A model generated the notes under the pieces. It was not told where the DNA came from, ran no database searches, and saw only the letters and a program-made list of their open reading frames with translations. 64,000 bases of DNA from Pseudopedobacter saltans DSM 12145. GTDB taxonomy: Bacteria; Bacteroidota; Bacteroidia; Sphingobacteriales; Sphingobacteriaceae. The position numbers and the translations under genes were made by a program. Positions 42,649 to 47,270 of the stretch are shown piece by piece (positions within the stretch are counted from its first letter, which is position 1; every line of letters starts with the position of its first letter). The stretch covers positions 744,001 to 808,000 of the forward strand of contig NC_015177.1 in NCBI RefSeq assembly GCF_000190735.1. The letters run 5' to 3'.

Positions 42649-43737
42649 TTACCGATATACCTTATTTCTCAAATAATGATCCAGCACTACTAAAGCTGCC
42701 ATAGCTTCAACAATAGCGACCGCTCTGGGAACTACACAAGGATCGTGGCGACCTTTACCTTTGATTTCATCAATCTGGCCATCTTTATTGATGGTTTGCT
42801 GGTTGGTCATAATAGTTGCTACCGGTTTGAATGCTACCCTGAAATTGATGTCCATTCCGTTAGAGATACCGCCTTGTATACCTCCTGAGAAATTTGTTCT
42901 GGTAATTACTTTTCCATCGGTATCCACATCGAAGATGTCATTATGTTCTGAACCTCGCATGGTGGAACCATCGAAACCTGAACCATAATCAAAACCATGA
43001 ACAGCATTGATGCTTAGCATAGCTTTGCCCAGGTCGGCGTGTAATTTATCAAACACAGGCTCGCCTAATCCAACCGGACAGTTTTTGACAGTACAGGAAA
43101 CTTTGCCACCTATAGTGTCGCCAGCTTTTCTTACCGAATCAATTAATGCAATCATTTCGTTTGCAGTAGCCGGATCGGCACATCTTGCGATATTACTTTC
43201 CCTTAAAGCTTCAAATTCTGAAACCGAAGAAATGTCAACATGGGGAGCATCTATTGTCCCAACTGAAGAAACGTGAGCTGCTATTTCGATGCCTACCTGT
43301 TTCAATGCCAATTTCGCAATTGCTCCGGCGGCAACGCGGGCGGCGGTTTCCCTTGCAGAAGAGCGACCACCACCACGGTGGTCCCTTATGCCATATTTTT
43401 GATGGTAGACATAATCGGCATGTGAAGGCCTGAAAACGTCTTTATTGTGATCGTAATCTTTGGATTTCTGATCTTCGTTAGGAATGATGATTGCGATAGG
43501 AGTACCTGTGGTTTTTCCTTCAAAAACACCAGATAAAATCTGACAAGTGTCGGATTCTTTTCTTTGTGTAGTGATTTTAGATTGACCAGGTTTACGCTTA
43601 TCCAGTTCGTTCTGGATAAATTCTTCATCAACAGTAACATTTGGCGGACATCCATCAATGATAACCCCAATAGCTTTACCATGAGACTCTCCAAAAGTCG
43701 TAATTCTAAAAATCTCTCCGAATGAATTTCCTGCCAT
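42649..43737 (-). CDS. aroC: Chorismate synthase
   Basis: 362 residues. It forms chorismate from EPSP using reduced FMN, the last shared step of aromatic synthesis. The start [15 protein letters not shown], the FMN-binding [21 protein letters not shown] (about residues 119-139), [20 protein letters not shown] and the C-terminal [25 protein letters not shown] are diagnostic. It is the last gene of the minus-strand pheA, DAHP synthase, aroA, aroC operon and lies 72 bases after aroA, with a repeat-rich spacer between. Confidence 0.97.
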
Positions 43738-43743
43738 TTTTTT

Positions 43744-43820
43744 TTAGTATCTAGTAGTTAGTACTTAGTATCTAGTCTTTAGGAGCGTTAAGCTTTCAGC
43801 CTTCGGCTTTTAGCTTAACG
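43744..43820. repeat. Micro-repeats and nested hairpin between aroA and aroC
   Basis: TTAGTATCTAGT is present twice (43744-43755 and 43765-43776). Next to it CGTTAAGCT (43786-43794) pairs with AGCTTAACG (43812-43820), and inside it AGCC-TTC-GGCT (43798-43808) makes a second stem. The outer 3' arm overlaps the last codons of aroA. Such TAGTA-type runs recur in the 46155-46245 spacer and look like dispersed intergenic repeats. Confidence 0.5.
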
Positions 43821-45048
43821 TGAATCCTATTTTTCTAACATCTTCCCAATAGTGAGGATAAGACTTATCTACCACTCTTTCTTCTTCAATTTCAACTTCT
43901 TTTACAAATAATGCCAACGGAGCAAATGCCATAGCCATTCTGTGATCCTCATAAGTGTTGATGAAGATTTTCTCAGGGAAATGTAAACCGCTACAATCTA
44001 AGGTGTAATTTAAATCCTTTTCAATAAGCTTTACTCCAATTTTAGCTAATTGTTCTTGTAAGGCTTTTATACGGTCTGTCTCTTTAATTTTTAAAGTTTC
44101 CAGTCCTGTAAAGGTAGCTTCGTGACCTAAAGCCGCACTAACAACAATAACAGTTTGTGCCAGATCCGGACAGTTTTTAAGATCAAAAAATTTACTATCA
44201 AGCGGTGTACTTACTTTTTCTAAAATCAATCCTGTTTCGTTAAAAGTTGTTTTAACACCGAAATGCGACATAATTTCTACGATAGCACTGTCGCCTTGTA
44301 AGCTATTTTGTCTTAAATAAGGAAGTGTAATCGTAGCAGAATCTGCCAATGCTGCAAAAGCATACCAATATGAAGCAGCGCTCCAATCTGGCTCTACAAT
44401 TAACTTGCTTTCATTAAACTCCTGATGTGGAATAGCAATTTTATTATCGTTCCAGGTATATTTAATACCACATTGTTCCAGAAAGCCCAAAGTCATTTCC
44501 ACATAAGGGCGAGAAGTCAGTTCTCCTTCAATTTCCAAAGTCAAACCTTTCGGAAGGAAAGATGCAATTAGTAGTAAAGATGTAATGTATTGAGATGAAA
44601 TATCTCCTTTGATTTTTACAGCTTCGCTCTTTTGAATGAATTGGGAAGGAATCTGAAGAGGAGGAAAGCCCTCGTTTTCGATGTATACTATTTCTCCGCC
44701 AATATGTCTTAAAGCGTCTACTAGTATACCTATTGGACGCTGTTTCATGCGTTCTGTTCCAGTTAAGACGGTATTAATGCCTTTTACTGTAAGGTAAGAT
44801 GCTAGAAAACGCATAGCAGTACCCGCTGGACCCACATTTGCTTCTGCAATATTTCCAGCAGCTGCATTTTTCAGAATATTATCCAGAGTTACCGTGTCGG
44901 CAGCAGAAGAAAGGTTCTCTATCTGAACCTTTCCTTTGCTTAATGCCTGTATGATTAAAGCTCTGTTGCTTTCGCTTTTAGAGCCTGTCAGTTCTATGGT
45001 CTGATTGATATTCTTATTGCTATTGCTGATGAGAATATTCTTTCCCAT
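43810..45048 (-). CDS. aroA: EPSP synthase
   Basis: 412 residues, slightly shorter than the usual 427. It joins shikimate-3-phosphate and phosphoenolpyruvate. Substrate-binding GSKSESNRALIIQAL (about residues 23-37), the PEP loop VGPAGTAMRFLASYL (about residues 82-96), RPIGILVDAL, the catalytic Asp in LKNCPDLAQTVIV and the Glu in KIKETDRIKAL, and EDHRMAMAFAPLAL near the end are all present. The GPAGTAMRF loop (with Ala in place of the second Gly of GNAGT) is common in this phylum. Its start codon overlaps the stop codon of the DAHP synthase gene by one base. Confidence 0.96.
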   Translation of the reverse strand: MGKNILISNSNKNINQTIELTGSKSESNRALIIQALSKGKVQIENLSSAADTVTLDNILKNAAAGNIAEANVGPAGTAMRFLASYLTVKGINTVLTGTERMKQRPIGILVDALRHIGGEIVYIENEGFPPLQIPSQFIQKSEAVKIKGDISSQYITSLLLIASFLPKGLTLEIEGELTSRPYVEMTLGFLEQCGIKYTWNDNKIAIPHQEFNESKLIVEPDWSAASYWYAFAALADSATITLPYLRQNSLQGDSAIVEIMSHFGVKTTFNETGLILEKVSTPLDSKFFDLKNCPDLAQTVIVVSAALGHEATFTGLETLKIKETDRIKALQEQLAKIGVKLIEKDLNYTLDCSGLHFPEKIFINTYEDHRMAMAFAPLALFVKEVEIEEERVVDKSYPHYWEDVRKIGFTLS

Positions 45049-46154
45049 TAGTTTACCTCACTTTTTGAAGCGTTCATGATTTCCGTTTGTTTACGGATTG
45101 ACTCACTATGAATTAATTCTAAGAATTTTTCTACGAAGTCTTTGTCTAATTTTAGAGCATTAGCCAAAGTCATTCTTTTCTCTAAAATTTCTTCCCAACG
45201 GTTTACTTGTAAAATGGTAACATCATTATCTCTTTTGTATTCACCAATTTTTTGAACCAATGCCATTCTCTCGCCAATTTTTTGAAGAATTAAATCGTCA
45301 ACTCTGTCGATAGAGTTCCTTAAATTGTTTAGCTTATTAGTGAATTCAGAATTATCAGAATCGCTGTGTCTTAAAGTTAAGTTGTCGATAATTTCAGCCA
45401 ATTTAGCCGGAGTAACCTGTTGTTTAGCGTCTGTCCATGCTACAGAAGGATCTCTATGTGCCTCAATCATTAGACCTTGCATATCCAGATCAATAGCCGT
45501 CTGAGCGATATGAGGAATTAATTCTCTGGCACCACAAATGTGAGAAGGATCGTTGAAAATTGGCAATTCAGGAGCTAACGTTTTCAATTGTATAGCTAAA
45601 TCCCACATAGGTTCGTTTCTGTAAGCAGATTTTTCGAAAGAAGAGAAACCTCTATGAATAGCAGCCAATTTAGTGATACCTGCTCTGTTTATTCTCTCCA
45701 AAGCACCAATCCACAAAGAAAGATCAGGGTTAATAGGGTTTTTTACTAATACCGGAACATCAACACCTTGTAATGCATCAGCAATATCCTGAACCGTAAA
45801 AGGATTTACAGTAGAACGGGCACCGATCCAAAGAATATCAACACCAGCAGCTAAAGCTTCTTCTACGTGTTTTGCAGTAGCAACTTCAACAGCTGTAGGT
45901 AAACCTGTTTCTTTTTTTGCTTTGTCTAACCAGACTAAACCTTCTACACCAATACCTTCAAATTCTCCCGGACGGGTTCGTGGTTTCCAGATACCAGCTC
46001 TTAAGATGTTAACTTTACCAGTTTCTTTTACTAAACGGGCAGTTTCTAATAATTGCTCTTCTGTTTCTGCACTACAAGGTCCAGAGATAATGATAGGCTT
46101 TCCGCCATTATCGAACCAGCTTTCTAGTGGTTGTATATTTAAGTTCAGTTTCAT
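45048..46154 (-). CDS. DAHP synthase fused to chorismate mutase
   Basis: 368 residues with two domains. Residues 1-260 are a type I-beta DAHP synthase: GPCSAETEEQLLETA, LRAGIWKPRTRPGEFEG, ARSTVNPFTVQDIAD, VLVKNPINPDL, and FNDPSHICG with metal and PEP contacts. Residues about 275-360 are an AroQ-type chorismate mutase (LRNSIDRVDDLILQKIGERM, KRDNDVTI, WEEILEKRM). It makes the first intermediate of the pathway and converts chorismate to prephenate, so the operon leads directly to phenylalanine and tyrosine; feedback control of such fusions by prephenate is established. Second gene of the operon. Confidence 0.95.
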   Translation of the reverse strand: MKLNLNIQPLESWFDNGGKPIIISGPCSAETEEQLLETARLVKETGKVNILRAGIWKPRTRPGEFEGIGVEGLVWLDKAKKETGLPTAVEVATAKHVEEALAAGVDILWIGARSTVNPFTVQDIADALQGVDVPVLVKNPINPDLSLWIGALERINRAGITKLAAIHRGFSSFEKSAYRNEPMWDLAIQLKTLAPELPIFNDPSHICGARELIPHIAQTAIDLDMQGLMIEAHRDPSVAWTDAKQQVTPAKLAEIIDNLTLRHSDSDNSEFTNKLNNLRNSIDRVDDLILQKIGERMALVQKIGEYKRDNDVTILQVNRWEEILEKRMTLANALKLDKDFVEKFLELIHSESIRKQTEIMNASKSEVN

Positions 46155-46245: not shown

Positions 46246-47076
46246 TTATACTTTATCGTTCTTTCTGTATTCGCCCATAATGTTGAAGTTGTTTGTCAGT
46301 CTCAACAGTTTTCTGATGGCAGAATCATAGTTTCCATTGATTTTCCATTCCATATCAATATAGAAAGTAAACTCATTTCTCTTTCCTATTACAGGCATAG
46401 ATTGGATTTTGCTCATATTGATTTCGTGTTCAACCAAAACATTCAATATTTTTGACAGAATTCCCATCTCGTCTTTAACCTGGAAGGATACAGAAGCCTT
46501 GTTCGGATTTTTAATTTCTTCTTCATGACCAGCTAAAATCAAGAAACGTGTATAATTCTTTTTATTGGTTTCTATTCTTTTCTCTAAGATCTCCAAGCCG
46601 TACATTTCTGCCGCTAACGAATTAGCAATTGCTGCAGTATCTTTCAACTGCTCATCTTTAATTCTTTTCGCACAGGCTGCTGTATCGCTGCTTTCTGTTA
46701 CTTTCAATTGTGGGTAATCATCTAAAAATTCTCCACATTGGCGAATAGCGATAGGATGTGAGGTAACATTTGCAATGTCTTCAAATTTAACTCCCGGCAA
46801 TCCCATCAAGTGTAATTGTATGTGTAAATAAACTTCCCCTATAACGGGGTAGTTGAATTCTTTTAATAAAGAGTAGTTTGGTAATAAACTACCAGCGATA
46901 CTGTTTTCTATTGCCATAACAATGTAGTCCGCTTCACCAGCTTTCACTTTCTGAAAGGTTTCTTTAAAAGAATTACATTCAACAGTTTCGATATCTGTTC
47001 CGAAAAATTTGAATGCAGCCTCTTCATGAAATGAAGCTTTGATACCCTGAATAGCAACTCTTTTTTTAGTTTCCAT
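46246..47076 (-). CDS. pheA: Prephenate dehydratase
   Basis: 276 residues, stand-alone prephenate dehydratase without a mutase domain. It converts prephenate to phenylpyruvate for phenylalanine. The catalytic domain (about residues 1-180) has VAIQGIKASFHEEAAFKFF, MAIENSIAGSLLPNYSLL, VTSHPIAIRQCGEFL, DTAACAKRI and the NYTRFLIL motif with the catalytic Thr. A C-terminal ACT domain (about residues 195-270) binds Phe for feedback; its usual ESRP motif reads IQSMP here. It is the first gene after the aromatic attenuator, 91 bases before the DAHP synthase gene. Confidence 0.95.
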   Translation of the reverse strand: METKKRVAIQGIKASFHEEAAFKFFGTDIETVECNSFKETFQKVKAGEADYIVMAIENSIAGSLLPNYSLLKEFNYPVIGEVYLHIQLHLMGLPGVKFEDIANVTSHPIAIRQCGEFLDDYPQLKVTESSDTAACAKRIKDEQLKDTAAIANSLAAEMYGLEILEKRIETNKKNYTRFLILAGHEEEIKNPNKASVSFQVKDEMGILSKILNVLVEHEINMSKIQSMPVIGKRNEFTFYIDMEWKINGNYDSAIRKLLRLTNNFNIMGEYRKNDKV

Positions 47077-47094: not shown

Positions 47095-47127
47095 AAAAAA
47101 GGCCCGGACATTTTTGAACGGGCCTTT
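47095..47127 (-). terminator. Attenuator terminator before pheA
   Basis: In minus-strand order: AAAGGCCCG (47127 to 47119), a 12-base loop, CGGGCCTTT (47106 to 47098), extended to six T ending at 47095. It lies upstream of pheA and downstream of an aromatic leader peptide, so it works as an attenuator. The 5' arm is also the partner of the antiterminator segment at 47162-47168. Confidence 0.85.
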
Positions 47128-47161
47128 AATATTTTAGATTTTCATTTCTTGCATATTATAT

Positions 47162-47168
47162 CCCGCTC
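47162..47168 (-). promoter_or_regulatory. Antiterminator segment of the aromatic attenuator
   Basis: Minus-strand GAGCGGG, placed directly after the leader peptide stop codon. It can pair with CCCGTTC (47122 to 47116), the 5' arm of the terminator, by seven pairs including one G-U. A ribosome at the stop codon would cover this segment and let the terminator form; a ribosome stalled earlier on Phe or Tyr codons would leave it free. Confidence 0.7.
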
Positions 47169-47219
47169 TTATTGTGAAAAATAAAAGTAGAAGTAGTAAT
47201 ATGTGTTAAATGATTTCAT
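47169..47219 (-). CDS. Aromatic leader peptide (Phe/Tyr attenuator)
   Basis: A 16-codon open frame with ATG and TAA whose product is MKSFNTYYYFYFYFSQ. Four Phe and five Tyr codons, eight of them within residues 7-14, are far beyond chance. It starts about 15 bases after the predicted transcription start and stops next to the antiterminator segment, 42 bases before the terminator hairpin. The peptide itself is presumably not needed; ribosome speed over its codons senses charged tRNA-Phe and tRNA-Tyr, as in trp, phe and his leaders of enterobacteria. It controls pheA, DAHP synthase, aroA and aroC. Confidence 0.85.
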   Translation of the reverse strand: MKSFNTYYYFYFYFSQ

Positions 47220-47239
47220 GTATATCTTTTTGTTCGGAA

Positions 47240-47270
47240 CAAATGTATGAATTAATTTTTAACCTCCAAA
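47240..47270 (-). promoter_or_regulatory. Promoter of the aromatic operon
   Basis: On the minus strand TTTG (47270 to 47267), exactly 19 bases, then TACATTTG (47247 to 47240), a full match to the Bacteroidota consensus TTTG-N19-TAnnTTTG. An inverted repeat TTGTTC-G-GAACAA (47230-47242) overlaps the -7 element and start site and could be an operator or the first hairpin of the leader RNA. Confidence 0.75.

Follow-up and report, generated by a model that had tools for sequence, protein, structure and literature searches.

Leader-peptide attenuation is a textbook mechanism in Proteobacteria. The enterobacterial pheL peptide is rich in Phe and senses Phe only, and the thrL (Thr/Ile) and ilv leaders of enterobacteria each sense more than one amino acid. 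Vitreschak and others (2004) reportedly mention Bacteroidetes/Chlorobi. According to the excerpt of a 2010 survey (PMC2965389), its authors knew of leader peptides demonstrated in no groups other than Proteobacteria and Actinobacteria until their own Firmicutes cases. The excerpt of PMC2864571 lists the Bacteroid-trp motif (RF01692) as a probable cis-regulatory RNA of Bacteroidetes, and that of PMC7366714 mentions leader-like sORFs in B. thetaiotaomicron. The excerpted text of a 2021 transcriptome study of Flavobacterium psychrophilum (PMC9723704) gives hints of attenuation by leader peptides upstream of amino acid operons, as well as a structured element before pheA that also occurs in other Flavobacteriaceae genera and has no Rfam hits. 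Since both were thus noted in Flavobacteriaceae, the novelty in Bacteroidota suggested by the original prediction is smaller than claimed. Among the matches listed in a search of the open-licence literature, no title pointed to a study of a Bacteroidota Phe/Tyr leader.

The element considered here lies on the minus strand of the window (the whole 64-kb stretch of DNA analysed). It is very probably a ribosome-mediated transcription attenuator of the trp/phe type, which would set pheA-aroG-aroA-aroC jointly by charged tRNA-Phe and tRNA-Tyr. Every part named in the original prediction (promoter, 16-residue leader with nine aromatic codons, GAGCGGG, and terminator) can be read in the sequence, and the 5' arm of the terminator can indeed pair with GAGCGGG, through CCCGTTC at 47122-47116. 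The parts are as follows.

47240..47270, minus strand: promoter of the Bacteroidota type, TTTG (47270-47267), N19, and TACATTTG (47247-47240), read in the sequence
47169..47219, minus strand: leader peptide ORF MKSFNTYYYFYFYFSQ, from ATG at 47219 to TAA at 47169, read in the sequence and kept in relatives
47180..47203, minus strand: segment 1, the control codons, which are also the 5' arm of the 1:2 hairpin (CATATTACTACTTCTACTTTTATT), from the minimum free energy (MFE) fold of the window leader and family helix 1:2
47152..47173, minus strand: segment 2, the 3' arm of the 1:2 hairpin, from the MFE fold, helix counts, and ribosome masking
47168-47162, minus strand: GAGCGGG, the antiterminator arm within segment 2, adjoining the leader stop codon, read in the sequence
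47116..47122, minus strand: CCCGTTC, the part of segment 3 that pairs with GAGCGGG (2:3 antiterminator) and overlaps the terminator 5' arm, from folds
47095..47127, minus strand: intrinsic terminator (3:4), AAAGGCCCG (47127-47119), a 12-nt loop, CGGGCCTTT (47106-47098), and a T-run (47100-47095)

The combination TTTG-N19-TACATTTG is what we take to be the promoter type of the phylum Bacteroidota. Nine of the 16 codons of MKSFNTYYYFYFYFSQ encode Phe or Tyr, and codons 7-14 are, as originally described, all Tyr or Phe; the Gly, Ala, or Ser codon that breaks the aromatic run in most relatives is missing from the window leader. The GC-rich terminator sits between the leader ORF and pheA, the first of the four genes that would be controlled:

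46246..47076, minus strand: pheA, prephenate dehydratase with ACT domain, first gene (Pfam PF00800, PDT domain E 4e-58, and PF01842)
45048..46154, minus strand: aroG-type DAHP synthase/chorismate mutase fusion, second gene (PF00793, PF01817)
43810..45048, minus strand: aroA, EPSP synthase, third gene (PF00275)
42649..43737, minus strand: aroC, chorismate synthase, fourth gene (PF01264)

As for the actual transcription start, stalling, read-through, and amino acid response, we infer the following course. Transcription would begin just upstream of the leader ORF, and the ribosome would initiate at an A-rich site that has no Shine-Dalgarno sequence. When charged tRNA-Phe or tRNA-Tyr runs low, the ribosome would stall in codons 7-14 and cover segment 1, leaving GAGCGGG (segment 2) free; segment 2 would then pair with the terminator 5' arm (segment 3), and RNA polymerase would read into pheA. 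If both tRNAs are plentiful, the ribosome at the stop codon would cover segment 2, the 3:4 terminator would form, and the transcript would end at ~140 nt.

Comparison with related genomes bears out the leader, the terminator, their position, the three helices that can form as alternatives, and a codon run that matches the ribosome footprint. The relatives are the best 80 of 316 stretches encoding a PheA relative (65-76% identity in the best segment), mostly from Pedobacter, Mucilaginibacter, Daejeonella, and allied genera. The expectation that they would carry an aromatic leader and a terminator before pheA proved correct: 79/80 of these best 80 of 316 have both a leader rich in Phe and Tyr and a GC-rich terminator no more than 240 nt from pheA. 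The exception is L076 (Mucilaginibacter aurantiaciroseus), with neither leader nor terminator in the 450 nt upstream, a stretch that resembles another gene. Typical leaders of relatives are MKNITTYWFGYFYYFSKSRD and MKFNNAYFYGYYFYFTSKSRD. The gene order pheA-aroG-aroA-aroC is found in 68 of the 80 relative loci, and the remaining 12 have an early locus end, a gene uncalled or unrecognised at that place, or an intervening extra ORF. A covariance model of alignment A1 (46 of the 80 leaders of the window and 79 relatives, <90% identical) finds the element in 10/10 same-family genomes searched (E 2.7e-9 or better). A Daejeonella-like pheA leader also occurs on L080, a MAG contig titled Legionellaceae bacterium, which is for this reason probably mis-binned.

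Across the same 80 leaders, the loose promoter motif TAnnTTTN occurs within 90 nt upstream of the leader start in 79, the strict form TAnnTTTG in 51, and an additional TTG at about the right distance in 63, all three counts being without a chance control. A Shine-Dalgarno core of at least 4 bases precedes the leader in only 1/80.

The arrangement was compared with chance in several controls. A search of both strands of the 64-kb window for a short ORF with at least 5 of 8 F/Y/W codons and a terminator within 150 nt gives one match, the pheA leader. When the 350 nt before pheA were dinucleotide-shuffled 5000 times, no shuffle gave an ORF with 8 consecutive F/Y codons, and 300 gave an ORF with 5 of 8 aromatic codons (terminator not required). 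Over both strands of the 80 relative loci (974,517 bases) the combined ORF and terminator search returned 90 matches, 74 of them with leader motifs; the other 16 comprise six pheA leaders and ten places elsewhere, six of these ten being antisense to the same terminator. A generic terminator scan, limited to loops of 3-8 nt, did not detect the pheA-leader terminator, whose loop is 12 nt.

For the class Bacteroidia, 52 pheA places outside the own genome were considered (L082-L110 and L171-L193), a sample biased to PheA resembling that of the window, with the PheA search matching only 39/149 genomes. A strict script accepts 19/29 and 18/23 of them, i.e., 37/52 pheA genes with a leader, and L107, L108, and L183, whose terminators have fewer GC pairs, were added by eye, giving 40/52. 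The element was not found at the other 12/52 (L087, L089, L090, L091, L092, L093, L101, L105, L174, L178, L179, and L187). Among these, pheA appears directly behind another gene with no space for a leader in L101, L174, L179, and L187; L105 contains unread bases; and in L091 a TACATTTG element upstream of pheA is soon followed by a terminator, and no aromatic leader lies between them. In other classes of the phylum the element was found at 0/28 pheA loci (28 of 90 such places). Two complete tandem leader-terminator units precede a single pheA in L172:247-520 (MAYRSAYYFYFFCFFSSCRG, then MGYTYYYFFSLMDHRRLWVV) and likewise in L175 (MQKQLNNYFFFFNAMR, then MKRQTSTVFFYFFFIQP), possibly as a way to sharpen the response. 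The covariance-model search of the class reports 149/295 genomes at E 0.01, of which the top 15 places (E up to 1.4e-5) alone are treated as solid; L194-L199 were picked from model matches and are excluded from all counts. As for seven weak same-family places, one (L207) is a Thr/Ile leader with a terminator before an aspartokinase-like start, and the other six were rejected because they looked like ordinary terminators.

Codon content bears on which amino acids would be sensed. The 80 leaders contain 356 Tyr, 259 Phe, and 25 Trp codons in total, and the 40 class leaders 145, 191, and 17, respectively; Trp codons occur in 25 of the 80 and 17 of the 40. The two sets overlap (for example, the L082 and L083 peptides are identical to those of L060 and L078), and since leaders were chosen for richness in Phe/Tyr/Trp, only the joint presence of Phe and Tyr codons is informative. 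Both are present in 120/120 leaders (80 + 40). A sensor of Phe only, as in enterobacterial pheL, with Tyr codons tolerated for their resemblance to Phe codons in an AT-rich genome, would suit a first gene that encodes the Phe-specific prephenate dehydratase and an operon in which, in the window and the relative loci, no tyrA is seen. It is, however, unlikely: besides the joint presence of both codons, Tyr codons are more numerous than Phe codons across the 80 leaders (the 40 class leaders show the reverse), and the common-pathway enzymes of the operon serve Tyr too. Furthermore, a 425-aa divergent prephenate dehydrogenase-like protein, below NCBIfam cut-offs and presumably reminiscent of the fungal TYR1 type, is encoded outside the operon in the own genome (L217:187-1464), so Tyr is probably a product of the pathway there. 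The idea that tyrA is absent from the genome was dropped: PF02153 reaches only 26.7 bits, yet the 425-aa ORF matches prephenate dehydrogenase models (below cut-offs). Phe hydroxylase, as a route to Tyr, has no match in the own genome.

The alternative RNA helices were counted in A1. RNAalifold alone yields the inner 1:2 stem and the terminator only; the remaining helices were named by hand and then counted, with 500 shuffles per helix as control (relatedness not kept) and slid controls, in which 24-70% of cells are paired. The covariation foreseen in the alternative stems was found, with the scores of all three helices reached by 0/500 shuffles each, modestly for 1:2. The 3:4 helix is paired in 98.0% of cells and has five pairs with two-sided changes (covariation 0.197 vs a shuffled mean of 0.087). 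The 2:3 helix is paired in 94.1% with three such pairs (0.083 vs 0.042), its two-sided pairs being reached by 10/500 shuffles and its further pair types by 87/500. As for 1:2, 92.4% of cells are paired, with five two-sided pairs vs 2.8 in shuffles (20/500 reach this), covariation of 0.143 vs 0.122, and further pair types that 83/500 shuffles also reach; in 21/46 leaders its outermost pair is not formed.

In L022 one position is altered jointly in segments 2, 3, and 4 (GCCAGGAC, GTCCTGGC, and GCCAGGAC, respectively), and a silent Tyr codon change (TAC/TAT) is compensated by the partner base in 8/46 leaders (columns 60:71). The Daejeonella group has Ala instead of Gly in the aromatic run (GGT to GCT), AGCGGGG as segment 2, and GTCCCTGC/GCAGGGAC as terminator; by eye, its 1:2 pairing survives with a shift in register, and the counts treat this shifted pairing as partly unpaired. 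This suggests that RNA pairing is what requires a Gly or Ala codon amid the aromatic ones. Taken together, the alignments strongly support that all three helices are kept with compensatory changes, 1:2 least clearly and with modest covariation.

Folding of the window leader itself shows the 1:2 hairpin in the MFE structure, and its energy is 4.7 SD below that of its shuffles. Folded alone, the 1:2 and 3:4 helices have −10.3 and −15.7 kcal/mol, respectively. The window antiterminator register differs from the family consensus. In the window, 2:3 has 5 pairs in the MFE fold while segment 4 is not yet made, and the isolated 2:3 stretch reaches −14.5 kcal/mol with all 7 pairs formed.

Ribosome positions were modelled by hiding all RNA up to the A-site +12 nt, with segment 4 not yet made, and a position was called permissive if at least 5 bp of 2:3 could form; +12 is the footprint edge in E. 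coli. The trp/phe geometry of the original prediction holds up in this in-silico masking. A stall frees segment 2 in 80/80 leaders, the first five aromatic positions being all permissive, and a stop codon in the A site hides it in 77/80, with 2:3 still possible in 3/80. Counted from the last aromatic codon, the last permissive position is 0, 1, or 2 codons further on in 77/80 leaders (31, 44, and 2, respectively) and 4-7 codons further on in 3. In the window the switch point lies between S15 and Q16, a single codon beyond the final Phe. Leaders commonly end in SKSRD, which is the translation of the antiterminator segment (AGT AAG AGC CGG GAC), so a ribosome at the leader stop codon would sit over segment 2. 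Among the 40 class leaders the boundary fit is looser than in the 80: relative to the last aromatic codon, the last permissive position ranges from −1 to 2 codons in 31 leaders and lies 3-8 codons beyond it in 9, and at the stop codon 36/40 are hidden and 4/40 remain permissive. With no ribosome and a transcript up to segment 3, MFE prefers 2:3 over 1:2 in 78/80 leaders, the window being one of the two exceptions; without translation, termination of the kind seen in E. coli trp may therefore depend on 1:2 forming first. Once segment 4 is made, 3:4 is the MFE state in 12/12 leaders listed, so the antiterminator would have to win kinetically.

These results also weigh against two other readings. 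A terminator with constitutive partial activity, or an expressed small protein, giving no amino acid response, is very improbable: the leader would be translated in that case anyway, but there would be no need for a conserved set of three mutually exclusive helices or for aromatic codons at the edge of the ribosome. A riboswitch or T-box, in which the RNA itself or a bound tRNA decides rather than the translating ribosome and the aromatic ORF is incidental, is likewise very improbable, for although a terminator with a competing helix is riboswitch-like, the sole Rfam match of the window at gathering score is a tRNA elsewhere, T-box has no Rfam match before the operon (in the window or in own and related leaders) and is absent even from the weak matches of those leaders, the Phe/Tyr run is kept with varying codons in 79/80 relatives (best 80 of 316), and the codon run ends where a ribosome would start masking segment 2.

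The pheA attenuator appears to have company in the same genome. The trpE gene (L216) is preceded by a WWW leader and a terminator-like hairpin, with a CCCGG segment after the leader that by eye does not fit the pheA scheme. In L214, a Thr/Ile leader (MRRFITGTIITTTITLNA) and a hairpin with a T-run precede a homoserine dehydrogenase gene, whose frame, judged from its first residues, presumably begins like aspartokinase. The His-rich leader MNKFLNTVHHHLHHRHLGGVI precedes hisG (L215, G000:C1:2001900-2002700); the script scored no intrinsic terminator between the two, and hisG may be controlled at translation. No such leader is seen upstream of ilvD in the own genome, and L214 and L216 have no Rfam match at gathering score.

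On balance, we favour the view that the joint Phe and Tyr (and Trp) attenuator upstream of pheA is ancient within the class Bacteroidia, one of a set (Phe/Tyr, Trp, Thr/Ile, and His), sometimes in tandem, which would act via close coupling of transcription and translation without a Shine-Dalgarno start. A conserved set of this kind would mean that in Bacteroidia ribosomes follow RNA polymerase closely enough to control termination, despite leaders that lack a Shine-Dalgarno sequence. The element would also give a natural reporter of aromatic amino acid supply and of joint Phe/Tyr logic, and it represents an RNA family that no Rfam model reaches at gathering score.

Compared with known systems, pheL-pheA (RF01859, Phe_leader) shares the aromatic leader peptide, the antiterminator, the terminator before pheA, and the same logic. 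In contrast to it, the present leaders carry Phe and Tyr codons, often with Trp, lack a Shine-Dalgarno sequence, and precede an operon that adds DAHP synthase, aroA, and aroC. The window element (L118) falls outside that Rfam family by score and obtains 26.5 bits (E 0.68) with RF01859 vs a gathering threshold of 55 bits. RF01692 (Bacteroid-trp), whose link to trp is implied by name only, has no match in the window or in the own trpE leader stretch L216. Enterobacterial thrL (Thr/Ile) and the ilv leaders likewise let one leader sense more than one amino acid, for other amino acids and operons. The F. psychrophilum element shares the gene, the phylum, and the mechanism proposed for amino acid operons, and may be comparable; the excerpted text (PMC9723704) describes it without giving its sequence, its Phe and Tyr content, the geometry of a switch, or a distribution outside Flavobacteriaceae. 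Thus, judged on sequence comparison, it is well supported that this is an attenuator of a known kind, distinguished by its spread through the class and by what would be joint control by Phe and Tyr.
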